A stretch of 64,000 nucleotides of DNA from positions 62,001 through 126,000 of the forward strand of contig NZ_VIGH01000009.1 of the NCBI RefSeq assembly GCF_006704125.1. The letters run 5' to 3'. The position numbers were made by a program, and so were the translations under genes. The notes under the pieces are model-generated. The model did no database searches and had not been told where the DNA came from. It saw nothing but the letters and a program-made list of their open reading frames with translations. Each line of letters starts with the position of its first letter. The stretch's first letter is position 1. Of the stretch, positions 1,149-62,104 are shown piece after piece. The stretch is from Rhodococcus spelaei. GTDB lineage: Bacteria; Actinomycetota; Actinomycetes; Mycobacteriales; Mycobacteriaceae.

Positions 1149-3260
1149 TCAGTGCCCGATGCCGACCTTCTCGTACACCTTCCGCATCCAGGCCGGTGCC
1201 CACCAGTTGGCCTCACCCATCAGTTTGACCAGTGAGGGCACCAGCAGCATCCGCACCACGGTGGCATCGATGACCAGTGCCAGGATCATCCCGACGCCGA
1301 GGAACCGCATGATCGACAGGCCGGACAGGGTGAAGGCGCCGGTCACGACGATCAGCAGGGCCGCCGCCGTCGTCACGATCCGGCCGGTGCGGGCGGTACC
1401 GATCCGCACGGCCTCCTCGGTGCTCGCTCCGTTCGCCCGCGCCTCGACCATCCGGGACATCAGGAACACCTCGTAGTCGGTGGACAGTCCGAACACCACC
1501 GCGAGGATCAGCACCACGAACGTCGGTTCCAGTGGGTTGGGTGTGACACCGAGCAGGCTCGCACCGTGACCGTCCTGGAAGACCCAGGTGAGCACGCCGA
1601 AGGTCGCGGCCAGACTCAGCCCGGCCATCGCGACCGCCTTGACCGGCAGCACCACCGAGCCGAACGCCAGGAACAGCAGCACCAGGGTCGAGCCGACCAT
1701 GATCGCGATCATCCACGGCAGGTGCGCGACGATCGAGGAGTTGGTGTCCTCGGTCAGTGCCACCCCGCCGCCGACCATCAGGTCGGTGCCGGCCGGCGGC
1801 TCGATCGCGCGCAGCGCGCGCACCGTGTCGGCCGGGTTCGAACCCTCGGCGTAGCTCGCGTTCAACACCGAGAAGTCGTCGGTCGACGCGACCAGTCGCA
1901 CCTGCGCGACACCCTCGACAGCCCGCGCCTGCGCGGAGAACTCGCCGAGTTGCGCGGTGCTCGGCGGTGCGCCGTTCTCGCCGCGCAGCATCAGGCTGGC
2001 CGCGTCGCCGGTGCCGACGAAGTCCTCGGCGAGCGTCTGGGAAGCCGCGCGGGACGGATCGTTCGCCGGCAGTGCGGTGTAGGTGATCTCGCCGAGCGTG
2101 ATACCGAGCAGCGGCGACGCGAGCACGAGCAGGCCGGCGACGATGGTCACCGCGAACGCGACCGGACGCCGCATCACCCGGGTGACCACTCGTCCCCAGA
2201 ACCGGGCCGCCCGCTTCTCTCCGCGCTCGACCGCTCCGCGGCGCCAGGCCAGCGAGTTGATCCGGTGGCCGAGGATGGCCAGCAGTGCGGGCACGGCGGT
2301 CAGCGAGAGCACTGCCGCACTGGTGACGGCGGCGATCGCGCCGTAGCCGAGCGAGCGGATCACCGGCTGCGGGAAGATCAGCATGCCGCCGAACGCGCAG
2401 ACCAGCAGCAGCCCGGAGAACATCACGGTTCGGCCGGCCGTGCAGACGGTACGGCGCACCGCCTGCGCGGGCTCGCTGCCGCCTGCCAGTTCCTCCCGGT
2501 ACCGGCTGACGATGAACAGTCCGTAGTCGATCGCGAGGCCGAGGCCCAGCAGCGAGGCGACGTTGAGGGCGAACGAGCTCACCTCGGTGAACGTGGTGAG
2601 CAGTCGCAGGGTGGCGAGTGCGCTGAAGACGGTGAGCATGCCGACGAACACCGGGACCGCCGCGGCCACGACGGTGCCGAAGATCAGTACCAGCAGCACC
2701 AGCGTGATCGGCAGTGCGATTGCCTCGGCCTTGACCAGGTCCTGTTGCAGGTGCTGGTTGAACGAGTGCCCGATGATCGTGCCACCACCGAACTGCGCCT
2801 CGATGCCGGGCGGGCTCAGCGCGTGGGTCATCGAATCCAGGTCCGCGAGGGTCGGTCCGGCGTCCCAGTCGACGAAGACCGTCGCCAGTGCCTCGCGGCC
2901 GTCCTTGGACACCATCAGCTTCGCGGTCGACGGATCCACCGACCAGTAGGAGGTGACCGAGCGGGTGGGCCACTGCTCCCGGAACGCGGTCAACGTCTGC
3001 TGGACTTGCGGGCCGATGTCGGCGATCGTCTTGCCCTCGGGCGCGGTGTAGATCGCGACGATGTCCGGCGACTGTTGTCCGAGTTTGTCGTCGATGAGGA
3101 TGCTGACCCGAGCGGACTCGCTGTTCGGGTCGAAGTACCCGCCCTGGCTGAGCTTGCCGAAGACGCCGAGCCCCCACAGTCCGCTGACGAGGACGGCGAG
3201 CACGGCGACGATCAGCACCCACCACTTCCGGGATGCGACGAACGAGGCCCAGCGCGTCAT
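1149..3260 (-). CDS. MMPL/RND-family membrane transporter
   Basis: Membrane transporter of the MMPL branch of the RND superfamily, 703 residues. It has the usual duplicated layout: a short N-terminal helix (KWWVLIVAVLAVLVSGLWGL), a large extracytoplasmic loop, a block of membrane helices containing the conserved GLAIDYGLFIVSRYREE segment, then a second loop and helix block containing FGLSTDYEVFLMSRMVE. These two Asp-Tyr segments are the signature of proton-driven MMPL exporters. It is smaller than the approximately 950-residue mycobacterial MmpL lipid exporters and closer to the general actinobacterial 700-residue group. The substrate is unknown; lipids or small hydrophobic compounds are the family expectation. 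Start chosen at the ATG with GAAGAGAG upstream. Confidence 0.88.
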   Translation of the reverse strand: MTRWASFVASRKWWVLIVAVLAVLVSGLWGLGVFGKLSQGGYFDPNSESARVSILIDDKLGQQSPDIVAIYTAPEGKTIADIGPQVQQTLTAFREQWPTRSVTSYWSVDPSTAKLMVSKDGREALATVFVDWDAGPTLADLDSMTHALSPPGIEAQFGGGTIIGHSFNQHLQQDLVKAEAIALPITLVLLVLIFGTVVAAAVPVFVGMLTVFSALATLRLLTTFTEVSSFALNVASLLGLGLAIDYGLFIVSRYREELAGGSEPAQAVRRTVCTAGRTVMFSGLLLVCAFGGMLIFPQPVIRSLGYGAIAAVTSAAVLSLTAVPALLAILGHRINSLAWRRGAVERGEKRAARFWGRVVTRVMRRPVAFAVTIVAGLLVLASPLLGITLGEITYTALPANDPSRAASQTLAEDFVGTGDAASLMLRGENGAPPSTAQLGEFSAQARAVEGVAQVRLVASTDDFSVLNASYAEGSNPADTVRALRAIEPPAGTDLMVGGGVALTEDTNSSIVAHLPWMIAIMVGSTLVLLFLAFGSVVLPVKAVAMAGLSLAATFGVLTWVFQDGHGASLLGVTPNPLEPTFVVLILAVVFGLSTDYEVFLMSRMVEARANGASTEEAVRIGTARTGRIVTTAAALLIVVTGAFTLSGLSIMRFLGVGMILALVIDATVVRMLLVPSLVKLMGEANWWAPAWMRKVYEKVGIGH

Positions 3261-37663: not shown

Positions 37664-38887
37664 ATGTCCAAGATCAAGGTTGAGGGCACCGTCGTCGAAC
37701 TCGACGGCGATGAGATGACACGCATTATCTGGCAGTTCATCAAGGACAAGCTGATCCATCCGTACCTCGATGTGAATCTCGAGTACTACGACCTCGGTAT
37801 CGAATACCGCGACAAGACCGACGACCAGGTCACCATCGACGCCGCGAACGCCATCAAGCAGCACGGCGTCGGCGTCAAGTGCGCGACCATCACGCCGGAC
37901 GAGGCCCGGGTCGAGGAATTCGGTCTGAAGAAGATGTGGCGGTCGCCCAACGGCACCATCCGCAACATCCTCGGCGGCACCATCTTCCGGGCACCGATCA
38001 TCATCTCCAACGTTCCGCGACTGGTTCCGGGCTGGACCAAGCCGATCATCATCGGCCGTCACGCGTTCGGTGACCAGTACCGCGCCACCGACTTCAAGGT
38101 GCCCGGCCCCGGCAAGGTGATGATCACCTACACGCCCGAGGACGGCAGCGCCCCGATCGAGCACGAGCTGGTGAACTTCCCGGAGGGCGGCGGCGTCGTC
38201 CAGGGGCAGTACAACTTCACCAAGTCCATCGAGGACTTCGCGCGCGCCTCGCTCAACTACGGCCTGCAGCAGAACTACCCGGTGTACCTGTCCACCAAGA
38301 ACACCATCCTCAAGGCGTACGACGGCGCGTTCAAGGACATCTTCCAGCACGTGTTCGAGACCGAGTTCAAGTCCGAGTTCGACGCGGCGGGCCTGACCTA
38401 CGAGCACCGCCTCATCGACGACATGGTCGCCTCCGCACTCAAGTGGGAGGGTGGCTACGTCTGGGCCTGCAAGAACTACGACGGCGACGTCCAGTCGGAC
38501 ACCGTCGCGCAGGGCTTCGGCTCGCTCGGCCTGATGACGTCGGTGCTGCTGACCCCGGACGGACGGACCTGTGAGGCGGAGGCCGCGCACGGTACCGTCA
38601 CCCGGCACTTCCGCCAGCACCAGCAGGGCAAGCCGACCTCGACGAACCCGATCGCGTCCATCTTCGCGTGGACCCGCGGTCTCGAGCACCGGGGCAAGCT
38701 GGACAACACCCCGGACGTCATCGCGTTCGCGCAGCAGCTCGAGGACGTCGTCATCAAGACCGTCGAGGGCGGCCAGATGACCAAGGACCTCGCACTGCTC
38801 GTCGGCGGCGACCAGGGCTACCTGACCACCGAGGAGTTCCTCGGCGCGCTCGACGAGAACCTGCAGAAGGCGCACGCGTCCAGGTAA
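37664..38887 (+). CDS. icd: NADP-dependent isocitrate dehydrogenase
   Basis: Dimeric eukaryote-type isocitrate dehydrogenase of 407 residues, making 2-oxoglutarate, CO2 and NADPH in the TCA cycle. It matches icd1 (Rv3339c) in position and sequence style. Landmarks: [14 protein letters not shown] at the start, the substrate-binding [45 protein letters not shown] with metal-binding aspartates, and the NADP region [24 protein letters not shown] lies 13 bases before the ATG, a longer spacing than usual. Left border of the conserved backbone before the beta-lactone island. Confidence 0.96.
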
Positions 38888-38908
38888 CACCGCACGGCTT
38901 CACCACGA

Positions 38909-38942
38909 GGAGGGGCGTCCCGGAGATCCGGGGCGTCCCTCT
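38909..38942. terminator. Long hairpin after icd
   Basis: A near-continuous stem of about 16 pairs (three G-T wobbles) folds around the two-base centre GA; the inner six pairs are CCCGGA/TCCGGG. It begins 22 bases after the icd stop codon. No T-run follows. This should end the icd transcript and isolate it from the island that starts at 39016. Confidence 0.7.
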
Positions 38943-39015
38943 CCCTCGTCACGGGTGAGCGATCTCACCACCTCTCACTTGGAGTTTCAACGACCGGCGC
39001 GAGGAGAATCGACAG

Positions 39016-40254
39016 GTGGATTCGCCGACTCTCCCCGCCGTCGACCGCACGTCCGGGCGGACGCGCGGCGCTCGGCGACCCGCGATGCTCGCGCTCGCAC
39101 TCGGCGGATTCGGGATCGGGACCACCGAATTCGTTGCGATGGGTCTGCTGCCCGAGATGGCGGGCAGCCTCGGAATCAGCGAACCGACCGCTGGCCATGT
39201 CATTTCCGCCTATGCGCTCGGCGTGGTCGTCGGCGCCCCCCTGATCGCGGCCGCAACAGCCCGGGTGCCGCGCCGGACTCTGCTGATCGCGCTCATGGTC
39301 GCGTTCACGATCGGCAACGCCGCCTCGGTGTTCGCGCCGTCCTACGCCGCGTTGACGGCGGCGAGATTCGTCGCGGGCCTGCCGCACGGCGCGTACTTCG
39401 GTGTTGCCGCGCTCGTCGCGGCACACCTGGCGGAACCGGGTCGGCGGGCCAAGGCCGTCTCCATGGTCATGATGGGTTTGTCGGTGGCCAATGTCGTCGG
39501 GGTGCCGGTGGCGGCATGGCTCGGTCAGACACTCGGCTGGCGCAGCGCGTTCGCGCTGGTCGCGGTCATCGGCGTGACGACCGTCGTCTCCCTGGTCGCC
39601 TGGATCCCGCCGCTCGACGCCATGCCGACGACCAATCCGGTCACCGAACTCGGCGCTCTGGGGCGGCTGCAGGTGTGGATGACGCTGATCATGGGCATGG
39701 TCGGCTTCGGCGGCATGTTCGCGGTGTACTCGTACATCAGCACCACGCTGACGGACCTGTCCGGGCTACCGCGGTCGTTCGTGCCGGTCGCGTTGATGTT
39801 GTACGGACTCGGCATGGTCGTGGGCAACTTCGTCGGCGGCCACCTCGCCGACCGCGCGTTGATGAAAGGTCTTGCCGTGTCGATGGCCGCGCTGGCGGCG
39901 ATCCTGGCGCTGTTCGTCCTGGCCGTCCACAATCCGGTCACCGCGCTCGTGTTCGTCTTCCTGATCGGCGTCGCCGGGTCCGCGATGGTGCCGGCCCTGC
40001 AGACCCGGCTGATGGACGTCGCGGCCGATGCGCAGACCCTCGCTGCCTCGCTCAACCACGCGGCACTCAACATCGCCAACGCCTTCGGCGCGTGGATCGG
40101 CGGAGTCGTGATCGCCGCCGGCTTCGGGTACGCCGCACCGGCCGCGGTCGGAGCGATGCTGGCAGTCGCGGGCTTGGCCGTGTTGGCCGGCGCGGTGCTG
40201 CTGCCGCGCCGCGCGCGCTATGTCCGGGTAGAGCCGGGGGAGGCGTCCATCTGA
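39016..40254 (+). CDS. MFS efflux transporter (DHA1/AraJ-like)
   Basis: Major facilitator transporter of 412 residues with twelve predicted helices. Family features: LGGFGIGTTEFVAMGLLPEMAGSLGIS in helix 1 and GRRAKAVSMVMMGLSVANVVGVPVAAWLGQTLGWRSAF with the motif C-like region of drug/proton antiporters. GTG start with GAGGAG nine bases upstream. It precedes the NRPS gene by 61 bases on the same strand, at the left edge of the beta-lactone island. Export of the island's product is the natural guess; sugar or drug efflux is the general family role. Confidence 0.85.
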   Translation: MDSPTLPAVDRTSGRTRGARRPAMLALALGGFGIGTTEFVAMGLLPEMAGSLGISEPTAGHVISAYALGVVVGAPLIAAATARVPRRTLLIALMVAFTIGNAASVFAPSYAALTAARFVAGLPHGAYFGVAALVAAHLAEPGRRAKAVSMVMMGLSVANVVGVPVAAWLGQTLGWRSAFALVAVIGVTTVVSLVAWIPPLDAMPTTNPVTELGALGRLQVWMTLIMGMVGFGGMFAVYSYISTTLTDLSGLPRSFVPVALMLYGLGMVVGNFVGGHLADRALMKGLAVSMAALAAILALFVLAVHNPVTALVFVFLIGVAGSAMVPALQTRLMDVAADAQTLAASLNHAALNIANAFGAWIGGVVIAAGFGYAAPAAVGAMLAVAGLAVLAGAVLLPRRARYVRVEPGEASI

Positions 40255-40272
40255 ACGCCCTCGCCGGGAGCT

Positions 40273-40284
40273 GTAACACGTTAC
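40273..40284 (+). promoter_or_regulatory. Palindromic operator/promoter at the head of the NRPS operon
   Basis: GTAAC-AC-GTTAC forms a dyad whose right arm overlaps TACTAT (40282-40287), a good -10 match. The start codon follows 29 bases later. The arrangement suggests a TetR-like repressor that blocks the promoter of the beta-lactone genes. No such regulator gene lies within the island. Confidence 0.5.
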
Positions 40285-40315
40285 TATTCCCGCACCCACC
40301 AGGCGAGGAGCGACG

Positions 40316-43294
40316 TTGACTTCGGCATTCCCCGTTTTCACCCGGCCGGTGTCACCGACCGAGCGGCTGTACCTGGCCATGCAGACCCTGGCGCCGCCGT
40401 TCGCGATTCAGTTGCTGGTCGAGGGGGTCGGCGCCATTGCCGAACTGGACCTCGCGGTTGCGGTCGCCGGTGCAGCGCAGGCCTGCCCGGGAGCGCGTCT
40501 CGTGCGCCGCGGCGACGACTGGGTGGACAGCGGGGTCGCGCCGCCGGTGCACGTGATCTCCGACGCGGGACTGTCCGGGGACAGCCTCGACGACCATCCG
40601 CTGCTCACTCGCCCACTCGATCCCGTCGATGGCCCGACGTGTGAGGTCCTGCTGCTGCCCGGGTCCCCGAATACCGTCGTGTTCAGGGCATTTCACGGCG
40701 TCATGGACGGCAAGGGCGTGCACCTGTGGGCGACCGAGGTGTTCCGGCTGCTGCGGGGGGAGCGTCCGGTCGGCGCCCGTGAGGCCGTCGCCGACCACAC
40801 GCTCGTCGAGCGACTCGGTGGCGGTGGCAAGCCCACGGTGATGATTCCGAGGTCCCGGTCGCCGCTGGGGCGGACTAAATCGGTGTCCGGCGAACCCGAA
40901 TTCCTGTGGCGCAGACGCACGGTCGGGTCGACCTCGCCCGCGGCGGTGGCGCGGATCGCCGAGGTGATCACCGCGGCGGTCGGCGGTCGGACCCGCATCA
41001 TGGTTCCCGTCGACCTGCGCAGGCACGACCGTGACCTGCGGTCGACCGCCAACCTGTCGCTGCCGCTGTTCCTCGACTCGGTGCCGGGCGACGGGTGGCA
41101 GCGCATCCACGCCGGGCTGCTGCGCGGGATGGTGGAATCACGCGAGCTCGCCGAGATGAACAACGGCGGGCTGCAGAGGATGCCGACCGCCGCTGCCCGC
41201 GCGATCATCCGGGCCGGCATGTTCCTCGGCGCCCGCACCGGCAACAACCTGGTCTCGGCCATCGTGTCCCACACGGGGACGACCGATCTCGGTGAACTGA
41301 GCTGCCGCGGGTTCGCGGCGACCCGGGTCAGTGGGCTGCCCGTGCACACCGGCATGGTGCCGCTGACGATCGCGGTGATGGAGGCGGGGGGCAGCACAGA
41401 GCTCGGTGTGTCCTGCCGCAACGGCGCGGGCGTGGAGCCGCGTCTCGACTGGCTGCTCGACCGGATCGAGGCGGCGCTGGGCGCGACGAGAGTCGTTGCC
41501 GCACCGGTCGATCCGCAGGCCGACCGGACCCTCACCGGCCTCTTCCGCGACCACGTCCGGTCGGCGCCCGAGGCGCCCGCTGTTCTCGGTCCCGAGGGCG
41601 AGTTGAGCTACGCCGCCCTCGACGCGTGGTCCGACGCGATCGCCGGCGAACTGCGCGGGCGCGGGGTGCGACGCGGTGACGTGGTGGCCATCCTGGCCCG
41701 CCGGACCTTCGCCGCCGTCGCGGGCCAGATCGGGATCCTCAAGTCCGGAGCGGCCTTCCTGGCGCTCGACCCCCACCACCCCGACGAGCGCATCCGCGGC
41801 ATCGTGGACGAGGCCGGCGTGGGGTGCGTCCTCACCGAACGCGAGTTCGCCGCGCGCGCCGGGCTCGGCGCGGTGGCAGCGGCAGTCCTCGAGGACATCC
41901 CGGTCCGGACCGGCGACGGGGAGGGTGCCGGAACCGATCTCGCGGAGCCCGGCGACGTGGCGTACGTGACCTACACCTCGGGGTCCACCGGCAGGCCGAA
42001 GGGCGTCCAGGTCGAGCACCGCGGCATCGTCAACCTGCTCCGCGCGGGCGCCGAACTGTACCGGCTCGGTCCGGAGACCCGATTCGCGTACTACCACACC
42101 CAGGCCGCCGACATGGCTTGCGCGGCCCTGCTTCTCCCGCTCACCAGCGGCGGCGCGGTGGTGCTCGTCCCAGGCGAGGTCAACCACCTCACGCTGACCG
42201 AGATCTTCGAAGGTTCCACGGTGAACACGGTCATGGTGACGCCGAGCCTGCTCGAGGTGGTGGTCCGGCTCGGACTCGAACCGGCAGCGATGCGCGCGGT
42301 GAGCATCGGGGGCGAGGCCCTGCACGAGCCGCTGGCCGCCGAGGCTCGTGCACTGTTCGGACCGGAGTGCAGGGTGCTCAACAGCTACGGCCCCGCAGAG
42401 ATGTCGATCGTCTGCGCGGCGCACCGGATCGAGGCCGTCGACGGGAGCGGAGCGGCGCCGGTGCCTATCGGTCGGCCCACCGCCGGCACCACGGTTCACG
42501 TCCTCGACGCGGCCCGACGGCCGGTACTCGCGGGCGAGATCGGAGAACTGTACTTCGGCGGTCCACAGGTCGGGCGCGGGTACCTGAACCGACCGGACCT
42601 GACCGCGCAGCGATTCGTGACCCTTCCCGACGGCGAACGCGTATACCGCACCGGCGATCTCGGTCGGATCCTGCCCGGCGGCGAGCTGGAGTTCTCCGGT
42701 CGTGTCGACAGTCAGGTCAAGATCAGGGGGAACCGGGTGGAACCGGGGGAGGTCCAGTCGCGACTCGCGGCTCATCCTGCCGTCGCCCGAGCGGCAGTGG
42801 TCGCCGTCCGCCGCGCGGAGCGCGGCGACAATGTGCTCGTCGCGTACCTCGTCGCGTCCGCAGGCGAATCAGTACCGGAGGTGAGCACGCTGCGGGACCA
42901 CCTGTCCCGATCCCTGCCGACGTACATGATTCCCGCCGAGTTCCACGTCGTCGCGGACATCCCGTTGACCTCCAACGGCAAACTCGACAGCGCGTCCCTC
43001 GGCACCGCGCGTGCGGACACCCCGACGGCGGTGCTGCCCGCCGACGACATCGCCGAGATCTGGGCCTGTGTCCTGCGGGTCGACGCCTCGACACTCGACG
43101 ACGCGGCGGACTTCTTCGAACTCGGTGGCGATTCACTGGCGGCGGTGGAGATGCTCTCGCAGGTCTCGCGGCGGGTCGTCGGTCCGGGCAACGACGTCGG
43201 GTTCGTCGCCGACCTCGAGGACCTCGTGCATCGGTTGACGCTCGGCCGGGTCCGGCAGGCGGCGCACCGTGCCCGCGTGCCCGCGCACCGGTGA
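40316..43294 (+). CDS. NRPS, condensation-like/adenylation/carrier (LstE-like)
   Basis: Single-module nonribosomal peptide synthetase of 992 residues. An N-terminal condensation-like domain (about 10-400) carries FHGVMDG at 126-132: the catalytic second His and the DG of HHxxxDG are kept, the first His is Phe. The adenylation domain (about 410-890) has YTSGSTGRPKG at 553-563, amino-group-binding Asp599, NSYGPAE near 688, YRTGDLG, and Lys in SNGKLD. The carrier domain has LGGDSL with the attachment Ser940. There is no thioesterase. Start is a TTG with AGGCGAGGAG upstream; an ATG 63 bases later is the alternative. Next to LstABCD-like genes it plausibly adds an amino acid to a beta-lactone lipid, as proposed for LstE in lipstatin. 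Confidence 0.88.
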   Translation: MTSAFPVFTRPVSPTERLYLAMQTLAPPFAIQLLVEGVGAIAELDLAVAVAGAAQACPGARLVRRGDDWVDSGVAPPVHVISDAGLSGDSLDDHPLLTRPLDPVDGPTCEVLLLPGSPNTVVFRAFHGVMDGKGVHLWATEVFRLLRGERPVGAREAVADHTLVERLGGGGKPTVMIPRSRSPLGRTKSVSGEPEFLWRRRTVGSTSPAAVARIAEVITAAVGGRTRIMVPVDLRRHDRDLRSTANLSLPLFLDSVPGDGWQRIHAGLLRGMVESRELAEMNNGGLQRMPTAAARAIIRAGMFLGARTGNNLVSAIVSHTGTTDLGELSCRGFAATRVSGLPVHTGMVPLTIAVMEAGGSTELGVSCRNGAGVEPRLDWLLDRIEAALGATRVVAAPVDPQADRTLTGLFRDHVRSAPEAPAVLGPEGELSYAALDAWSDAIAGELRGRGVRRGDVVAILARRTFAAVAGQIGILKSGAAFLALDPHHPDERIRGIVDEAGVGCVLTEREFAARAGLGAVAAAVLEDIPVRTGDGEGAGTDLAEPGDVAYVTYTSGSTGRPKGVQVEHRGIVNLLRAGAELYRLGPETRFAYYHTQAADMACAALLLPLTSGGAVVLVPGEVNHLTLTEIFEGSTVNTVMVTPSLLEVVVRLGLEPAAMRAVSIGGEALHEPLAAEARALFGPECRVLNSYGPAEMSIVCAAHRIEAVDGSGAAPVPIGRPTAGTTVHVLDAARRPVLAGEIGELYFGGPQVGRGYLNRPDLTAQRFVTLPDGERVYRTGDLGRILPGGELEFSGRVDSQVKIRGNRVEPGEVQSRLAAHPAVARAAVVAVRRAERGDNVLVAYLVASAGESVPEVSTLRDHLSRSLPTYMIPAEFHVVADIPLTSNGKLDSASLGTARADTPTAVLPADDIAEIWACVLRVDASTLDDAADFFELGGDSLAAVEMLSQVSRRVVGPGNDVGFVADLEDLVHRLTLGRVRQAAHRARVPAHR

Positions 43295-43380
43295 TCAGCC
43301 CACCACGCGCACTTCGAACGAGCCACCGCGCTCACCCAACCGCCATGGCCGCATCGGCCTGCCGACCCAGAGAGACCACG

Positions 43381-44442
43381 ATGACAAAGTCTCGGTTCGA
43401 ATCGATAGGTACCTACCTGCCCAGCACGGTCCTGAGTACGAAGGAGTTGGTCGGCAGGCTCGCCACCGCGCCCCCCTTCGACCTCGAGGCCATCACCGGT
43501 GTCGTGGACCGGCGCGTCTCCGACACCCGAGCGGAGAGCTACGAGGACTCGTTCACGTTGGCGCTCAACGCGGCCCGGGACGCGCTGAGCCGGTCCCGCT
43601 ACCGAGCCGACGAGATCGACGTGATCATCTCGACCTCGATCTCGCGCAGCAAGAACCGTGACACCATGTACCTCGAGCCGTCCTTCGCCTCGATGCTCGC
43701 GAAGGAACTGGGCGTCCGGGGCGGGGGCTCCGCTCCGATCACGTTCGACCTGTCCAACGCCTGCGCGGGCATGCTCAGCGGCGTCTACGTGCTGGACCGG
43801 ATGATCCGATCGGGGGCGGTGCGCACCGGAATCGTGGTCAGCGGCGAGCACATCACCCCGATCTCGGAGACCGCGGTCTCCGAGATCTCGGAGAAGTACG
43901 ACCTGCAGTTCGCGTCGCTGTCGGTGGGGGATTCGGGCGCGGCGGTGGTGCTGGACCGTGCCGTCGACGAGGACGACAAGATCGACTACATCGAGCTGAT
44001 GACCGCCTCCGAGTACTCGAACCTGTGCCTGGGCATGCCGAGCGAGCAGACCCCCGGGATCGCCCTGTACACCGACAACCGCAGGATGCACAACGAGTCG
44101 CGCTTCCTGCTGTGGACGAACGCGCAGAAGGAGTTCCTCGCGGCGCGCGGGCGTACCTTCGCCGACGAGGACTTCGACTTCGTCATCCACCACCAGTTCG
44201 GTGCCTCGGCGGTATTGATGCTGAACGCGTTGGGGGAGCGAGAGTTCGAGACGCCGATGCCGCCGCCTCTCAATGTCGTCGAGAAGTACGGAAACACCTC
44301 GAGCACGTCCCACTTCGTCGTCCTGCACGACCACCTGAAGGACAAGGCGGTGCCGAGAGGGTCGAAGATCCTGATGGTCCCGGCTGCCTCCGGCATCGTC
44401 ACCGGCTACGTGTCCGCCACGATTTCTTCCCTGGAGGTCTGA
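43381..44442 (+). CDS. KAS III-like acyl-CoA condensing enzyme, catalytic subunit (LstA/NltA/OleA-like)
   Basis: Thiolase-fold enzyme of 353 residues in the KAS III/OleA group, expected to join two fatty acyl-CoA chains head to head. The full triad is visible: Cys128 in SNACAGML, His270/271 in VIHHQFGAS, Asn305 in EKYGNTSS. A conserved glutamate in the OleA-type segment TMYLEPSFAS is also present. The ATG at 43381 gives the usual N terminus (FESIGTYLPSTVLST); the frame is open far upstream but overlaps the NRPS gene. It ends six bases before the second KAS III-like gene, which probably forms a heterodimer with it, as LstA does with LstB. Confidence 0.88.
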   Translation: MTKSRFESIGTYLPSTVLSTKELVGRLATAPPFDLEAITGVVDRRVSDTRAESYEDSFTLALNAARDALSRSRYRADEIDVIISTSISRSKNRDTMYLEPSFASMLAKELGVRGGGSAPITFDLSNACAGMLSGVYVLDRMIRSGAVRTGIVVSGEHITPISETAVSEISEKYDLQFASLSVGDSGAAVVLDRAVDEDDKIDYIELMTASEYSNLCLGMPSEQTPGIALYTDNRRMHNESRFLLWTNAQKEFLAARGRTFADEDFDFVIHHQFGASAVLMLNALGEREFETPMPPPLNVVEKYGNTSSTSHFVVLHDHLKDKAVPRGSKILMVPAASGIVTGYVSATISSLEV

Positions 44443-44448
44443 CTCGTC

Positions 44449-45345
44449 ATGGGTATCGCCATCAAGTCCACCGGCGTGAGCGTTCCCGCCGTGACGACCA
44501 GCGTCATCGAGCACTCGGCCCGCGCGGCGCGGGCCGCGATGGCCACCGCGGGCATCGAGGCGCAACAGGTCGGCGTGCTGGTCAACACCGGCATATACCG
44601 AGACTCGAACCTGTTCGAGCCGTCCATCGCGGCACTGATCCAGCGCGAGGCGGGCATCGGGCTCGAGTACCCGGAAGGCGTCGCGCGGTCGTTCTCCTTC
44701 GACCTGATGAACGGCGCCTGCGGTGTGCTCAATGCGGTGCAGGTTGCGACCGCACTCCTCGAAACCGACAGTGCCGAGCATGTTCTCGTGGTGTCCGGCG
44801 ACACGCATCCGTCGCTGCAGCGGCGCCGGCCGTCCGCGGACTTCCCGTTCGTGACCGCGGGCGCGGCACTGTTGCTCGCGAAGACCGACGGCCCTGAGGG
44901 CTTCGGCCCGGTCGCGGTCGCGGAGTCCGACGGGTCGCCCGCCACCGAGGGTTTCGCGGACATGTCGACGATGGGCGTGCACGGCCGTTCCCTCGTCCAC
45001 GTGGTGCGCGAGGAGGGTTTCGAGCACCGCCTGCTCGACGTGGCGACCTCTGCCGCGCTCGAGGCGCTGGAAGCGGACGCGGATCCGCGTCGGACCGCGT
45101 TGATCTGCTCGCGGCCCACGGACGGGTTCGGTTCGCTGCTCGCCGCGCGGCTCGGGTTGCCCGGCGACTCGGTGATCGGCAGCGGGCCGGTACAGGGCGA
45201 CGCTCACACGGCGGCGCTCACCGTGGCGTACCACCATGCCGCCGAGACCTCGTTGCTCGCCGGCTACGACCAGGTCCTGTTCGTCGCCGCGGGCGCGGGT
45301 CCGAGCGCCGCCGCCGTCGTCTACCGGTTGGCGCCGGGGAAGTGA
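44449..45345 (+). CDS. KAS III-like partner subunit (LstB/NltB-like)
   Basis: Thiolase-fold protein of 298 residues, shorter than its neighbour. It keeps a cysteine (Cys91 in MNGACGVL) and the OleA-type glutamate (Glu57 in YRDSNLFEPS) but lacks recognisable His and Asn catalytic segments; where Asn is expected it has GPVQGDAHTAAL. This asymmetry matches the lipstatin LstA-LstB heterodimer, in which the B subunit supplies the glutamate. The gene follows the catalytic subunit by six bases and its stop overlaps the start of the beta-lactone ligase gene (GTGA), so the three proteins are made together. Confidence 0.85.
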   Translation: MGIAIKSTGVSVPAVTTSVIEHSARAARAAMATAGIEAQQVGVLVNTGIYRDSNLFEPSIAALIQREAGIGLEYPEGVARSFSFDLMNGACGVLNAVQVATALLETDSAEHVLVVSGDTHPSLQRRRPSADFPFVTAGAALLLAKTDGPEGFGPVAVAESDGSPATEGFADMSTMGVHGRSLVHVVREEGFEHRLLDVATSAALEALEADADPRRTALICSRPTDGFGSLLAARLGLPGDSVIGSGPVQGDAHTAALTVAYHHAAETSLLAGYDQVLFVAAGAGPSAAAVVYRLAPGK

Positions 45346-47018
45346 CGACGGCAGCACCGCGCGCGCACTGCGGTTCCGTCGCGAGGCTCCGTGCGATCGC
45401 GGCCGAGCATCCGGGGCGCGAGGCAGTGATCCACGCGGACGGCGGAACCGACTCGGGTACACCGCGATACGCACGACTGACGTATCGCGAACTCGACGAC
45501 TGGTCGGACCTGCTGGCGCAGCGTTTCGAGGCCTGCGGGATCGGACGCGGCATGCGCACGCTGCTGCTGGTGACGCCCGGTCCGGAGTTCTACGCGATCA
45601 TGTTCGGCCTGCTCAAGGTGTCCGCCGTGCCGGTGGTGATCGATCCGGGGATGGGTCTGCGGCCGATGCTGCGGTGCCTGAAATCGGTGGCGCCGCAGGC
45701 GTTCGTGGGGATCTCGAAGGCGCACCTGCTGCGACTGGCGTTCCGCCGCACCTTCGCCACGGCGCGCGTGAGGGTGACGGTCGGCCGCCGGGCCTGGGGC
45801 GGGCACAGCCTGCGGTCGTGGGGGCGCACCCCGGATCGTCCGGTCGCGCCGACGCCCGCTGCGCCCGACGACGAGGTGATGATGATCGCCTTCACCACCG
45901 GTAGCACCGGCCCGGCGAAGGCCGTCAACCTCACGCACGGAAACCTCGCCGCCATGCTCGAGCAGGTCGACGAGGCGCGGGACCGCATTCCGCCGGGCAC
46001 CTCGCTGATCACCCTGCCGATCTTCGGGGTGCTGGACCTGATGCTGGGGTCGCGGTGTGTGCTGCCGCCGATCAGGCCGGGCCGGGTCGGCGAGGTCGAC
46101 CCGGCCCACGTGGTCGACGCGATCGACCGGTTCGAGGTGCGGACCCTGTTCGCGTCGCCCGCAGTGCTGGTGCCACTGGTGCGGTACGGCCGCGCGCACG
46201 GCGTCACGCTGTCGTCGGTGCGGTCGGTGTTCTCCGGCGGAGCGCCGGTGCCGCACGACGCCATCGCCGGCCTGCGGGAGATGCTGCCCGACGACGGTCA
46301 GGTGTCCGCAGGGTACGGCTCGACCGAGGCGTTGCCGATGTCGGCGATCGAATCTCGCGAGCTGCTCGGTGAATTCGTCGATCGCGCGCACGCGGGCGCC
46401 GGGACCTGCCTCGGCCGCCCGGCACACGGGGTGCACGCCCGGATCATCGCGATCACCGACGACGCCGTCCCGGACCGTGCCGCCGAGCGCGCCGCGGCTG
46501 CGGGCGGTATCGGCGAGATCGTGGTCGCCGGACCGAACGTGAGCACGAGCTACCACTGGCCGGTCGAGGCGAACGCGCTCGGGAAGATCCGCGACGGGGA
46601 CCGGATCTGGCACCGCACCGGCGATCTCGGCTGGATCGACGAGGCGGGCCGGATCTGGTTCTGCGGACGCAAGAGTCAGCGGGTGCAGACGGCGGACGGA
46701 CCGTTGTTCACGGTGCAGTGCGAACAGATCTTCAACGCTGTGCCCGACGTGGCGCGCACAGCTCTGGTCGGCGTCGGCAGTGTCGCCGACCGACGCCCCG
46801 TGCTGTGCGTCGAACTGCAGCCGGGCGTCGGCTCCGGCCAGCGGCCGCGGATCGAGGCGAAGTTGCGCGAGCTGGGCGCCCAGAGCCACGTCACCGCGCG
46901 CATCGAGCACTTCCTGTTCCACCCGGGATTCCCGGTGGACATTCGGCACAACGCGAAGATCGGGCGCGAGAAGTTGTCGGTGTGGGCGCAGCGACAGTTG
47001 GCGAAGGAGAGCAGATGA
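45342..47018 (+). CDS. Beta-lactone synthetase, OleC/LstC/NltC-like
   Basis: Adenylate-forming enzyme of 558 residues. The ATP loop is FTTGSTGPAKAVNLTHGN (about 184-201), the aromatic/acidic motif is GYGSTEALP, and the hinge region reads HRTGDLGWIDEAGRIWFCGRKSQRVQ. The C-terminal sequence FPVDIRHNAKIGREKL (530-545) is the hallmark of OleC, which closes beta-hydroxy acids to beta-lactones rather than making CoA esters. GTG start overlapping the previous stop; its own stop overlaps the next ATG. An ordinary fatty-acyl-CoA ligase is the alternative but the C-terminal motif argues against it. Confidence 0.9.
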   Translation: MTTAAPRAHCGSVARLRAIAAEHPGREAVIHADGGTDSGTPRYARLTYRELDDWSDLLAQRFEACGIGRGMRTLLLVTPGPEFYAIMFGLLKVSAVPVVIDPGMGLRPMLRCLKSVAPQAFVGISKAHLLRLAFRRTFATARVRVTVGRRAWGGHSLRSWGRTPDRPVAPTPAAPDDEVMMIAFTTGSTGPAKAVNLTHGNLAAMLEQVDEARDRIPPGTSLITLPIFGVLDLMLGSRCVLPPIRPGRVGEVDPAHVVDAIDRFEVRTLFASPAVLVPLVRYGRAHGVTLSSVRSVFSGGAPVPHDAIAGLREMLPDDGQVSAGYGSTEALPMSAIESRELLGEFVDRAHAGAGTCLGRPAHGVHARIIAITDDAVPDRAAERAAAAGGIGEIVVAGPNVSTSYHWPVEANALGKIRDGDRIWHRTGDLGWIDEAGRIWFCGRKSQRVQTADGPLFTVQCEQIFNAVPDVARTALVGVGSVADRRPVLCVELQPGVGSGQRPRIEAKLRELGAQSHVTARIEHFLFHPGFPVDIRHNAKIGREKLSVWAQRQLAKESR

Positions 47019-47272
47019 CAGGCACGCGGGTGGTGGCACTGCGGGCGATACCGGTGCTGGGTTGGATGTTCCTGGCGGTCGGCCTGATTCGGCCGTTCCG
47101 GGGTCGGACGCTTCGCGCGCTGTGGTGGACCGACGTCGCACTGAGTGTCGGCGCGCACGCCGCGCAGGTCCCCATGGCACTCGAACACGGCCGCCGACTG
47201 GGGCATTCGGACGGCAGGATCGTCGCGATGACGATGCTGCTCGGCGCGACCTGGTGGAGGACGCAGCGTTGA
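47015..47272 (+). CDS. Small membrane protein of the beta-lactone operon
   Basis: Protein of 85 residues with two to three hydrophobic segments (about 5-24, 36-52 and 67-78) separated by basic loops (RPFRGRTLRAL, EHGRRLGHSDGR). I do not recognise the family with certainty. Its ATG overlaps the stop of the ligase gene (ATGA) and the next gene starts 13 bases downstream, so it is a firm member of the operon. I recall no counterpart in the lipstatin or nocardiolactone clusters. It might anchor the soluble enzymes at the membrane. Confidence 0.7.
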   Translation: MTGTRVVALRAIPVLGWMFLAVGLIRPFRGRTLRALWWTDVALSVGAHAAQVPMALEHGRRLGHSDGRIVAMTMLLGATWWRTQR

Positions 47273-47285
47273 CGGGCGTGACACG

Positions 47286-48332
47286 GTGAGGGCATTGGTG
47301 ACCGGTGCGAGCGGGTTCCTCGGCGGGGCACTGACGCGGCGCCTGCTCTCCGGCGGCGACATGGAGGTCTCGGTGCTGGTGCGCCGCACCAGCGACCTGC
47401 GCGACCTCGGCGACACGTCCCGTCTGACACTCGTCTACGGCGACCTCGCCGATCGGGAGTCGCTGCGGGCGGCGACCCGCGGCGTGGACGTGGTGTTCCA
47501 CAGCGCCGCGCGGGTCGACGAGCGTGGTGTGCGTGAACAGTTCTGGGTCGAGAACGTGCAGGCGACGGTCGACCTGCTCGACGCGGCCCGGCGCAGCGGG
47601 GCGTCGCGATTCGTGTTCGTCTCCAGCCCGAGCGCGCTGATGGAGTACGACGGGGGCGACCAGATCGACGTCGACGAGTCGCTGCCGTACCCCGTGCGGT
47701 ACCTGAACCTGTACTCCGAGACGAAGGCGGCCGCCGAGCGGCGGGTGCTCGCGGCGAACGGTCGGGACCTGACGACCTGCGCGCTGCGCCCGCGCGCGAT
47801 CTGGGGCGCGGGAGACCGGTCCGGCCCGATCGTCCGGTTGCTGGCCAAGGCGTCGAGGGGCGCACTGCCGGACCTGTCCGGCGGGCGTGCGGTGTACACG
47901 TCGCTGTGTCACGTCGACAACATCGTCGACGCGTGCGTGCGGGCCGCGGCCGCGGACTCGGAGCGGGTCGGCGGCCGCGCGTACTACGTCGCCGACGCGG
48001 AGCGGACCGACGTGTGGCAGTTCGTCGGGGAGGTCTCGCGGCTGTTCGGCTTCGATCCGCCGAGCCGGCGGCCGAACCCCCGGGTGCTCGCCGCGGTGGT
48101 GGGCGTCACCGAGGCGATCTGGCGGATGCCGTGGGTCGCGACCAGGTGGTCGCCGCCCCTGTCGCGGTACGTGATCGCGCTGCTCACCCGCAGCGCGACC
48201 TTCGACATCGGCGCCGCCGAGCGCGACTTCGGCTATCGGCCGATCGTCAGCCGGGACGCCGGACTGAAGGAGTTCCAGGACTGGGTGGACGAGCAGGGCG
48301 GCGTCGCGGCACTGGCCAGGCCGTTGCGCTAG
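47286..48332 (+). CDS. NAD(P)-dependent beta-keto reductase, OleD/LstD/NltD-like
   Basis: Extended short-chain dehydrogenase of the 3-beta-HSD type, 348 residues. The nucleotide loop TGASGFLGG is at residues 6-14; the catalytic Ser is in FVFVSSPSALMEY and Tyr143/Lys147 in LYSETK. OleD-type enzymes reduce the 2-alkyl-3-keto acid made by OleA to the beta-hydroxy acid that OleC lactonises. The GTG start gives the expected N terminus (MRALVTGASGFLGGALTRRLL). Last gene of the beta-lactone operon, 38 bases before xthA. Confidence 0.87.
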   Translation: MRALVTGASGFLGGALTRRLLSGGDMEVSVLVRRTSDLRDLGDTSRLTLVYGDLADRESLRAATRGVDVVFHSAARVDERGVREQFWVENVQATVDLLDAARRSGASRFVFVSSPSALMEYDGGDQIDVDESLPYPVRYLNLYSETKAAAERRVLAANGRDLTTCALRPRAIWGAGDRSGPIVRLLAKASRGALPDLSGGRAVYTSLCHVDNIVDACVRAAAADSERVGGRAYYVADAERTDVWQFVGEVSRLFGFDPPSRRPNPRVLAAVVGVTEAIWRMPWVATRWSPPLSRYVIALLTRSATFDIGAAERDFGYRPIVSRDAGLKEFQDWVDEQGGVAALARPLR

Positions 48333-48370
48333 CGGAGGTTTGTCGGGCCGGTCGGTTACGGTTTCTTCCC

Positions 48371-49174
48371 GTGCCGCACATCATCACCACCGTCAATGTC
48401 AACGGGGTCCGCGCCGCCGCCAAGAAGGGGCTGCTCGAGTGGATCGACGCCACCGAGGCCGACGTGATCTGCCTGCAGGAGACCCGCGCCGACGACAAGC
48501 AGTTGCGGGCCACGCTCGCGCCCGCCCTCGACGCGGGCTGGCATGTCGCCTCGGCCGAGCCGTCCGCGAAGGGACGCAACGGCGTTGCCGTGCTCTCGCG
48601 CCGGCCCGCGGACGCGGTCCGCGTCGGTCACGGCGACGACGAGTTCGCCGAGGCGGGCCGGTACCTCGAGGCGGACTTCGACGAGTTGACCGTCGCGAGC
48701 CTGTACCTGCCGTCGGGCGAGGTCGGGACCGAGCGGCAGGACGAGAAGGAGCGCTTCCTCGACTCGTTCGGCCGGCACCTCGAGGCGACCGCTGCGGACG
48801 CGCTGGCCGCCGACCGGCACGTCGTGGTGTGCGGCGACTGGAACATCGCGCACACCGAACTGGACCTGAAGAACCACAAGGGCAACGTCAAGAACTCCGG
48901 CTTCCTGCCGTCCGAGCGGGAGTGGATGGGTTCGGTGTTCGGCGAGTTCGGCTGGGTGGACGTGGTGCGCGGGCTGCACCCGGACCTGCCCGGGCCGTAC
49001 AGCTGGTGGTCGTACCGCGGCAAGGCGTTCGACAACGACTCCGGCTGGCGCATCGACTACCAGGTCGCCACCCCGGCGCTCGCCGAGCGGGCGAAGGAGG
49101 CGGTGACCGAGCGCGCCGCGTCCTACGACCAGCGCTGGTCCGACCACGCGCCGGTGACGGTGCAGTACCGGTGA
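48371..49174 (+). CDS. xthA: Exodeoxyribonuclease III / AP endonuclease
   Basis: Exonuclease III-family base-excision repair nuclease of 267 residues. Metal and active-site segments: NVNGVRAAAKKGLLEWI, the catalytic Glu in ICLQETRADD, GDWNIAHTELDLKN with Asp and Asn, and the terminal SDHAPV. GTG start. It marks the right border where conserved backbone genes resume after the beta-lactone island. Confidence 0.93.
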   Translation: MPHIITTVNVNGVRAAAKKGLLEWIDATEADVICLQETRADDKQLRATLAPALDAGWHVASAEPSAKGRNGVAVLSRRPADAVRVGHGDDEFAEAGRYLEADFDELTVASLYLPSGEVGTERQDEKERFLDSFGRHLEATAADALAADRHVVVCGDWNIAHTELDLKNHKGNVKNSGFLPSEREWMGSVFGEFGWVDVVRGLHPDLPGPYSWWSYRGKAFDNDSGWRIDYQVATPALAERAKEAVTERAASYDQRWSDHAPVTVQYR

Positions 49175-49721
49175 GCCGGCTCGGGACGCGGTCGCGCGTC
49201 GTCGTCGGGGTGCTGCTGGCCGTCCTCGTGGTGGTCGCGGCCTTCGTCTTCACCGGCCGCGACGGGGACTCCTCATCGGATTCGTTTACGGTGTCGGAGT
49301 CGCTCGTCGAGACGTCGAGCCAGGCGCAAGCATTCCAGCCGTCGCCAACACCCAAGCGCATCGTGGTCCTTCCCGACGGCTCGGTGACCGAAACGCAGGC
49401 GCCGCCTCAGACCGCCGGACCGCGTGGCGTGGTTCCGGCGGCGGTCACCGCCGCCGCCGTCGCCACCCTGGCCAAGATCGACGCCGGCACCTGGCCGGAC
49501 TCGGCGAACGCGCCGGGCACCAAGGGCGGCGACACCTGGCAGAACCGGGAGGGCAGGTTGCCGCGGACGGACTCGGCGGGGAAGTCGATCGCCTACCGGG
49601 AATGGGACGTGAACCCGAAGATCCGCGGCGAGACCCGCGATGCGGAGAGGATCATCACCGGTAGCGACGGATCGGCCTGGTACACCGCCGACCACTACAC
49701 GAGTTTCGCGAGGATGCGCTG

Positions 49722-49722
<1 letters not shown>
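49171..49722 (+). CDS. Membrane-anchored guanyl-specific ribonuclease (RNase Sa-like)
   Basis: Protein of 183 residues. An N-terminal hydrophobic helix (RVVVGVLLAVLVVVAAFVF, about 9-27) acts as signal or anchor, followed by a low-complexity Ser/Thr/Pro linker and a microbial RNase domain over the last 90 residues. The catalytic set of the RNase Sa/T1-like fold is visible: Glu in AYREWDVNP, Arg in ERIITGSDG and His in YTADHYTSF. GTG start overlapping the xthA stop. The following gene encodes its likely inhibitor, so this is a secreted or surface nuclease with self-protection. Confidence 0.85.
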
Positions 49723-51249
<1,527 letters not shown>

Positions 51250-60815: not shown

Positions 60816-62104
60816 TCGCGGACGCCGTCTCGCTCATCACCGCCAAACGCGACGGTCGCGAGCTGACCGATGATGAGATCGGCTGGCTGATCGCCTCGTA
60901 CACCCGCGGCGAGGTCGCCGACGAACAGATGTCGGCGCTGGCGATGGCGATCGTCTTCCGTGGCATGACCCGCGCCGAGACCGCGGCGTGGACGCACGCG
61001 ATGATCCGCACCGGCCGCCGGATGGACCTGAGCGCGTTGCCACGTCCGACCGTCGACAAGCACTCGACCGGCGGGGTCGGCGACAAGATCACTCTTCCGT
61101 TGGCGCCGCTCGTCGCGGCCTGCGGCGCGGCGGTCCCGCAGCTGTCCGGCCGCGGACTCGGGCACACCGGCGGCACCCTCGACAAACTCGAATCGGTGCC
61201 CGGCTGGCGCGCAGACCTGGCGCCGGCGGAGATCGACGCCATCCTGGCGGACCCGGCGGTCGGGGCGGTGGTGTGCGCCGCCGGCGCCGACCTGGCGCCC
61301 GCCGACCGCAAGCTCTACGCGCTGCGCGACGTCACCGGGACGGTCGAGTCCATCCCGCTGATCGCCAGCTCGATCATGAGCAAGAAGATTGCCGAGGGCG
61401 CGGGCGCCCTGGTGCTCGACGTCAAGGTGGGGTCGGGGGCGTTCATGAAGAACGTCGCCGACGCCCGCGAACTGGCTACCACGATGGTCGAACTGGGCGT
61501 CGATGCGGGTGTACGCACCGTCGCCCTGCTCACCGCGATGGACAGCCCGCTCGGTTACACGGCCGGCAACGCGCTCGAGGTCGCCGAGTCGGTCGAGGTG
61601 CTCGCCGGCGGCGGACCCGCCGACGTGGTGGAACTGACCCTGACGTTGGCCCGCGAAATGCTCTGCGCCGCAGGCCTCGACGGTCTCGATCCGGCCGAGG
61701 CGCTGCGCGACGGACGGGCGATGGACCGGTGGCGGGCCATGCTGCGCGCTCAGGGCGGCGATCCCACCGCGGCGTTGCCGACCGCCCGGGAGCGAGATGT
61801 GGTGACCGCGACCGAATCCGGCGTACTGACCCGCCTCGACGCGATGGCGGTCGGGGTGGCGGCCTCGCGGCTCGGCGCCGGTCGCGAGCGACAGGGCCAG
61901 CCAGTGCAGTCCGGGGCGGGGGTGACCTGGCACGCCCGGCCCGGTGACCTCGTCGTCGCGGGACAACCGTTGCTGACCCTGCACACCGACACCCCGGCCA
62001 GGTTCGCCGCCGCGCGGGCGGCGCTCGACGGAGCCTGGTCCGTGGGCGACACGCCACCGGAGGAGCCGCTCGTGATCGATCGCATCGGGCTCGTACAGGT
62101 TTAG
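60812..62104 (+). CDS. deoA: Thymidine phosphorylase
   Basis: Nucleoside phosphorylase of 430 residues cleaving thymidine and deoxyuridine with phosphate. Signature VDKHSTGGVGDKITLPLAPL (phosphate site) and SGRGLGHTGGTLDKLESVPG are exact. Further KIAEGAGALVLDVKVGSGAFMK. GTG start coupled to cdd. Corresponds to Rv3314c. Confidence 0.96.
   Translation: MIADAVSLITAKRDGRELTDDEIGWLIASYTRGEVADEQMSALAMAIVFRGMTRAETAAWTHAMIRTGRRMDLSALPRPTVDKHSTGGVGDKITLPLAPLVAACGAAVPQLSGRGLGHTGGTLDKLESVPGWRADLAPAEIDAILADPAVGAVVCAAGADLAPADRKLYALRDVTGTVESIPLIASSIMSKKIAEGAGALVLDVKVGSGAFMKNVADARELATTMVELGVDAGVRTVALLTAMDSPLGYTAGNALEVAESVEVLAGGGPADVVELTLTLAREMLCAAGLDGLDPAEALRDGRAMDRWRAMLRAQGGDPTAALPTARERDVVTATESGVLTRLDAMAVGVAASRLGAGRERQGQPVQSGAGVTWHARPGDLVVAGQPLLTLHTDTPARFAAARAALDGAWSVGDTPPEEPLVIDRIGLVQV

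Follow-up and report, generated by a model that had tools for sequence, protein, structure and literature searches.

Within the 64,000-nucleotide stretch of Rhodococcus spelaei DNA analysed here, called the window (positions 62,001 to 126,000 of contig NZ_VIGH01000009.1, assembly GCF_006704125.1), we have identified a run of codirectional genes encoding a nonribosomal peptide synthetase (NRPS), two ketoacyl synthase III-like subunits (the KAS-III pair, KAS1 and KAS2), an OleC-like beta-lactone synthetase (the ligase), a small hydrophobic protein and an OleD-like reductase (Table 1). The original prediction, made from the DNA letters, had described a lipstatin/nocardiolactone-like beta-lactone cluster headed by a transporter of the major facilitator superfamily (MFS). 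All six frames that it named (MFS, NRPS, KAS1, KAS2, OleC-like and OleD-like) are present where it placed them and point the same way, yet an open reading frame (ORF) of 85 amino acids (aa), which overlaps the end of the ligase gene and is itself a member of the set, had been overlooked. With moderate confidence, we read the locus as a rhodococcal operon of the lipstatin type from which the formyltransferase and MmpL transporter genes have been lost and which would make an O-aminoacyl beta-lactone without N-formylation, that is, an altered version of the lipstatin-type molecule is probably made. Lipstatin is the natural product from which orlistat, a lipase inhibitor marketed against obesity, derives. 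The evidence consists of gene content, family placement, kept catalytic residues and absences relative to sister species.

Table 1. Genes of the locus, its borders and the NRPS domains, in window coordinates
Feature	Coordinates	Strand	Basis
icd, isocitrate dehydrogenase family, left border	37664..38887	+	PF00180; 98% to R. oryzae and R. maanshanensis
MFS transporter, Cmx/AraJ kind	39016..40254	+	best three NCBIfam models all below cut-off; congener orthologues
LstE-like NRPS, 992 aa	40316..43294	+	Pfam PF00501, PF13193, PF00550; TIGR01733
NRPS N-terminal domain, HxxxD motif FHGVMDG	40316-41500	+	unclassified
NRPS adenylation domain	about 41525-43000	+	Pfam
NRPS thiolation domain with LGGDSL	about 43046-43174	+	Pfam
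KAS1, LstA-like catalytic KAS-III subunit, Cys128-His271-Asn305	43381..44442	+	Pfam, residues, tree
KAS2, LstB-like partner subunit without triad, Glu57 kept	44449..45345	+	residues, tree
OleC-like beta-lactone synthetase (LstC-like), 558 aa	45342..47018	+	NF045786 522.7 bits, tree
Small hydrophobic ORF, 85 aa, likely membrane protein	47015..47272	+	blastp to LstC-type tails
OleD-like 2-alkyl-3-oxoacyl reductase (LstD-like), short-chain dehydrogenase/reductase (SDR) with YSETK	47286..48332	+	PF01073 141 bits; NF042422 200.3 bits
Endonuclease/exonuclease/phosphatase-family gene, presumably xth, right border	48371..49174	+	PF03372; 87% to R. oryzae

KAS1 holds the full catalytic triad Cys128/His271/Asn305, as had been claimed for one of the subunits, and KAS2 lacks it. 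A review gives these very numbers, Cys128/His271/Asn305, for the residues of LstA (PMC12141560). The histidine and the asparagine lie 143 and 177 residues past the cysteine in KAS1 of the window, in R. oryzae and in four Streptomyces/Kitasatospora rows. At the position of the active cysteine of KAS1, KAS2 has FDLMNGACG; its Glu57 is kept in a stretch resembling the Streptomyces proteins, and we infer that it is the counterpart of LstB Glu60, essential according to the same review (PMC12141560). By sequence, the pair corresponds to the predicted heterodimer of the lst class, an LstA-type subunit with the triad and an LstB-type subunit without it. Its novelty is limited, because LstB counterparts are described there as widespread and always adjoining LstA (PMC12141560). 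In a KAS tree of 63 rows (two further loci without a match were left out), KAS1 and KAS2 fall in two separate lst/nlt-like clades, each with Rhodococcus, Streptomyces/Kitasatospora and g3 rows and more distant g2/g10 rows, g3 and g2 being genome groups that are probably Nocardia and Mycobacterium, respectively. Neither clade includes the three OleA-type rows or the two PF08541 proteins of the same genome that we took for FabH. A FabH identity of the pair was rejected on this placement, in a tree for which the program warns that long branches meet.

The ligase scored 522.7 bits against NF045786 (OleC, olefin beta-lactone synthetase), short of the curated cut-off of 900, and passed the cut-off of the general model NF006754 ('fatty acid CoA ligase family protein'); the reductase reached 200.3 bits against NF042422 (OleD, 2-alkyl-3-oxoalkanoate reductase), where the cut-off is 580. 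Among the 92 matches of the OleC model in this genome, the ligase stands at 522 bits and the next best at 101. In a tree of 29 rows, from which one locus was dropped, it lies inside the OleC clade (support 100/99), in the lst/nlt-like subclade (98/99), and apart from eight AMP-binding enzymes of its own genome taken as acyl-CoA ligases. Neither of the two groupings by which the original prediction could have failed, the ligase with ordinary acyl-CoA ligases and the KAS pair with FabH, was seen in the trees, and the candidate of an ordinary acyl-CoA ligase was dropped on this one. Both motifs that it had pointed out are there as well: FPVDIRHNAKIGREKL forms residues 530-545 of the ligase and is present, with small changes, in all four Streptomyces/Kitasatospora ligases examined, and YSETK, at position 143 of the reductase, also occurs in both Streptomyces reductases examined.

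No Pfam or NCBIfam model matched the 85-aa ORF. By blastp, its product resembles the C-terminal tails of LstC-type proteins from four Streptomyces/Kitasatospora loci (45-48% identity, E 3e-18 to 2e-20). In addition, a profile of the stand-alone copies of the small ORF matches five of nine ligases tested, all five from Streptomyces/Kitasatospora, and none of the other four. The protein has a single 19-residue hydrophobic peak (2.06), and each of five relatives has two. Across 397 genomes of the order, the small ORF was found in seven, the same seven that have an lst/nlt-like KAS2; in one of them (G309) it belongs to a second cluster and not to the nlt-like one.

The NRPS has an adenylation and a carrier domain, as expected of the lst class, with 381.8 bits against TIGR01733 (cut-off 317.4); its TTG start agrees with the N-termini of relatives, and no thioesterase was found in it. 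It had been described as a "C-A-T" protein, of which A and T are borne out by Pfam, and the "C" was recognised neither by Pfam nor by a PDB sequence search with a profile of the N-terminal domain, leaving a weak profile match only. In fact, PF00668 matched none of 11 members of this domain at E up to 1, where just two single weak matches to unrelated families appeared (E 0.17 and 0.25); the 53 PF00668 matches in the genome include none at this gene, and comparison with one condensation domain gave nothing. With hhalign, 30 condensation domains gave P 0.003 and a probability of 9.8%, FHGVMDG being aligned to HHISADG, and eight wax ester synthase/diacylglycerol acyltransferase (WS/DGAT) proteins gave P 0.024 and 2%; both are weak matches, read against two unrelated controls (P 0.54-0.55) and a positive control of WS/DGAT versus condensation domains (P 2e-5, 77%). 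The domain may be a remote member of the condensation/acyltransferase superfamily. A stand-alone relative of it (49-50% identity) adjoins an MmpL gene in five g3 nlt-like loci.

The letters of the adenylation pocket (A-pocket), at positions that we take from gramicidin synthetase, are DMAVSGSIVK in the window, identical to those of R. oryzae and R. maanshanensis. They read DMA(F/L)(V/I)GS(V/I)(V/A)K in six other rhodococci, DLM(M/L)QG... in four Streptomyces/Kitasatospora rows, DIFLLGGVAK in the row of Streptomyces sp. BR123 and D(L/M)M(L/F)(A/V)GS(M/L)VK in four g3 rows; varying in this way among the Rhodococcus, g3 and Streptomyces rows, they do not allow an amino acid to be assigned.

What is absent from the locus becomes clear by comparison with five congeners, R. 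oryzae NEAU-CX67, R. maanshanensis NBRC 100610, Rhodococcus sp. RD6.2, R. triatomae BKS 15-14 and R. tukisamuensis NBRC 100609. KAS2 is present in all six genomes of the genus examined and the whole set in the five congeners, each of which has a strong match to the LstF-like formyltransferase. R. spelaei, alone among the six, lacks that enzyme: its genome gave two weak matches only (32-34% over part of the protein, E about 1e-5), probably PurN- and Fmt-like, and the window holds no remnant of the gene. The MmpL copy of the operon is likewise absent from this genome only; matches to it at E 1e-100 or better number four in each of the five congeners and two here. One of these two, the gene at 1149-3260 of the window, is 56% identical to the operon copy of R. 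oryzae. It probably corresponds to a further MmpL gene, distinct from the operon copy, that all five congeners have at 54-56%, and we do not assign it to the operon.

A scan of contigs with a profile of the sister formyltransferases, which required a pattern match and so is not a full census, returned 15 loci, nine in Rhodococcus, five in Streptomyces/Kitasatospora and one weak match in an unrelated metagenome-assembled genome. All nine Rhodococcus loci unite the KAS pair with genes for the ligase, the reductase, the NRPS, the formyltransferase and MmpL, the last of these standing just past xth in R. oryzae and R. maanshanensis; the small ORF was called in seven. The order KAS1-KAS2-ligase-reductase-NRPS-formyltransferase is found in three of the five Streptomyces/Kitasatospora loci and in one further locus taken as Streptomyces. 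For the remaining two of the five, the stretch examined yielded no core gene, and a relative of MmpL was called in none of the five. One of those two (L090) is contig 221 of BR123, which a publication lists as 'Lipstatin (14%)' (PMC9405382). A general lack of the formyltransferase in g3 genomes, considered at first, was rejected, as five of 148 have one, adjoining an NRPS gene (a fragment in one). These are L184-L188, where an LstE-like NRPS, full length in four and a fragment in L188, lies beside an LstF-like formyltransferase and no beta-lactone core gene was called in the 18 kb examined; judged by this arrangement, the pair appears to be a separable amino-acid module.

Related KAS pairs are found in other settings as well. 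A 1788-aa protein from g2 (L051:9838-15201, minus strand) combines a KAS1-KAS2 pair with condensation (PF00668), adenylation and carrier domains in one chain and adjoins a type I polyketide synthase and an OleD-like SDR; six g2 matches from the search of the order lie in frames of 1800-1836 aa, the domain content being known for L051 only. At three g3 loci (L043, L044 and L045), a second cluster was seen in which the KAS1-KAS2 pair is accompanied by a ligase that is not OleC and by a 250-aa gene. In L045 the latter encodes a GT2 glycosyltransferase, and the small ORF and a P450-like gene are also present there; no OleC or OleD was called in these clusters. Further KAS1-KAS2-like pairs, at 32-50% identity, were seen in g2 and one g10 genome (L014-L028), and in wider flanks of such pairs (L046-L050 and L052) no OleC or OleD was called nearby.

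The MFS gene, predicted to be the exporter heading the cluster, turned out to be an older neighbour of icd and xth. Orthologues at 78-85% identity occur in three of the five congeners, all in the order icd-MFS-xth with trpS near and with no beta-lactone genes at that place, which rules it out as a cluster gene by origin; therefore, the operon sits between two old neighbours. By this comparison the MFS gene was probably at the site before the operon, with which it may now be co-transcribed. In R. oryzae and R. maanshanensis, the operon occupies the same place between icd and xth, and no close MFS relative was found at E 1e-40. Checks of repeats, tRNA and G+C at third codon positions (GC3) revealed nothing that accounts for the move of the operon: the window has no tRNA, no long repeat pair within 38600-49400 frames the operon, and GC3 of the genes is 0.83-0.94 against a window mean of 0.896. 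These checks gave no sign of a mobile element, though one may have been involved. Promoter and terminator scans over 38700-49300 gave nothing above shuffles, and PADLOC gave no match for the four proteins submitted. Between xth and trpS (49171-50180) lie a ribonuclease-family gene (PF00545) and then a Barstar-family gene (PF01337), likely a ribonuclease-inhibitor pair. Elsewhere in the genome, contigs C14, C15, C18 and C1 carry NRPS reading frames of 14485, 10976, 9188, 9009 and 5616 aa.

The pathway proposed here is inferred in all its reactions, substrates, amino acid and product; as far as aminoacylation, it would work like lipstatin assembly. Two fatty acyl-CoAs would be joined by the KAS1-KAS2 heterodimer in a non-decarboxylating reaction, and the OleD-like enzyme would reduce the beta-keto group. 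With ATP, the OleC-like enzyme, which the 85-aa protein may keep at the membrane, would close the 2-alkyl-3-hydroxy acid to a beta-lactone. The NRPS would adenylate one amino acid and load its own carrier domain, and the HxxxD N-terminal domain would then pass the aminoacyl group to a hydroxyl of the lipid chain. Since there is no LstF-like formyltransferase, the amine would be expected to stay free or to be otherwise capped.

The ratio of nonsynonymous to synonymous substitution (dN/dS), measured against R. oryzae, is 0.14-0.28 for the six genes, values which argue against an old decay of the operon. Nonetheless, decay may have reached the aminoacyl branch, so that the NRPS has lost its role and the product is a simple dialkyl beta-lactone of the same kind as nocardiolactone. 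The loss of the formyltransferase and the operon MmpL speaks for this, as do the carrier stretch, the least constrained of the NRPS (dN/dS 0.47 over 90 codons), and the five g3 nlt-like loci, which have the stand-alone relative of the N-terminal domain only and no adenylation-thiolation (A-T) part. We consider it unlikely, because the NRPS frame is intact, with its carrier serine, HxxxD and adenylation motifs kept, its dN/dS over the gene is 0.26 and its pocket letters match those of two formyltransferase-bearing species. Alternatively, the full formyl-aminoacyl product could arise through another cellular formyltransferase acting in trans, or another N-cap could be added. The two weak genome matches would be candidates, and NRPS-formyltransferase pairs can lie apart from the core in g3 genomes, yet the partial identity and E-values of both matches are as expected of housekeeping enzymes, which makes this route improbable. 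To an ordinary acyl-CoA or acyl-AMP ligase, with the set making a branched lipid or an N-acyl amino acid and not a beta-lactone, we would give very little credence: the curated OleC cut-off was missed and the general NF006754 passed, but the support for the OleC clade and its lst/nlt-like subclade is high and the other 91 OleC-model matches of the genome reach at most 101 bits.

Several points weigh against a lipstatin-type operon running without N-formylation. The unreached NCBIfam cut-offs for OleC and OleD, with the general model passed, are among them, and so is an N-terminal domain without an accepted family. The NRPS of L090, the locus linked in print to lipstatin, has pocket letters that differ from those of the window. 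A decay of the NRPS step is possible, judging from the weak constraint on the carrier, and dN/dS averages over the time before and after the losses. Moreover, the link to lst rests on residue numbers, gene order and Streptomyces/Kitasatospora proxies for LstA-F of S. toxytricini.

Perhaps rhodococcal lst-type operons consist of a core and a separable NRPS-formyltransferase module, which here runs without formylation to yield a free-amine aminoacyl beta-lactone, with the HxxxD domain as O-aminoacyl transferase and the 85-aa protein as a membrane component of the beta-lactone synthetase that had gone unnoticed; taken jointly, we put this forward tentatively and with more doubt than conviction. 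If this is true, the stand-alone HxxxD relative and MmpL of the nlt-like loci would mean that these pathways include steps of acyl transfer and export for which the four named nlt genes do not account. The Rhodococcus operon family, with its varied amino-acid pockets, natural gain and loss of formyltransferase and transporter, and split or fused parts, lends itself to a comparison that could separate the genes setting the side chain from those for closure and export of the beta-lactone. Neither the 85-aa protein nor the HxxxD domain matches a Pfam or NCBIfam model here, and both are now open to direct testing.

Among known systems, the ole clusters (OleA-OleBC-OleD and OleA-OleB-OleC-OleD) share OleC and OleD homology with the window, but they have a single OleA and an OleB-like alpha/beta-hydrolase; the latter is present in the three ole clusters examined (L129, L130 and L131) and was not found among the genes at 39016-49174, therefore a beta-lactone is the expected product. 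Nocardiolactone nltA-D of Nocardia resembles the window in the KAS pair, OleC, OleD and mostly the small ORF, with about 55% identity for KAS2 and 60-63% for OleC to the g3 loci taken as nlt-like, g3 being probably Nocardia. It differs in that the window has a full A-T NRPS, whereas the nlt class is taken to proceed without amino-acid activation and nlt-like loci have the stand-alone N-terminal-domain relative and MmpL. Lipstatin lstA-F of S. toxytricini (BGC0000382) shares the KAS-III pair with the same triad numbers, the OleC-like and OleD-like enzymes and the NRPS, and the gene order of its Streptomyces relatives recurs in most Rhodococcus loci. Unlike it, the window has its NRPS first, its small ORF separate and not fused to the ligase, and A-pocket letters other than those of the Streptomyces relatives examined; the formyltransferase is the one tested feature of lst proper that is missing. 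A literature search found no lipstatin-type cluster described in Rhodococcus, where some may stand under the general class name 'betalactone'. Compared with the operons of R. oryzae and R. maanshanensis, which keep both the formyltransferase and MmpL but lack a close relative of the MFS protein, the window shares the icd-xth site, the gene order and the A-pocket letters, with 84% identity in KAS1 and 67% in the NRPS.

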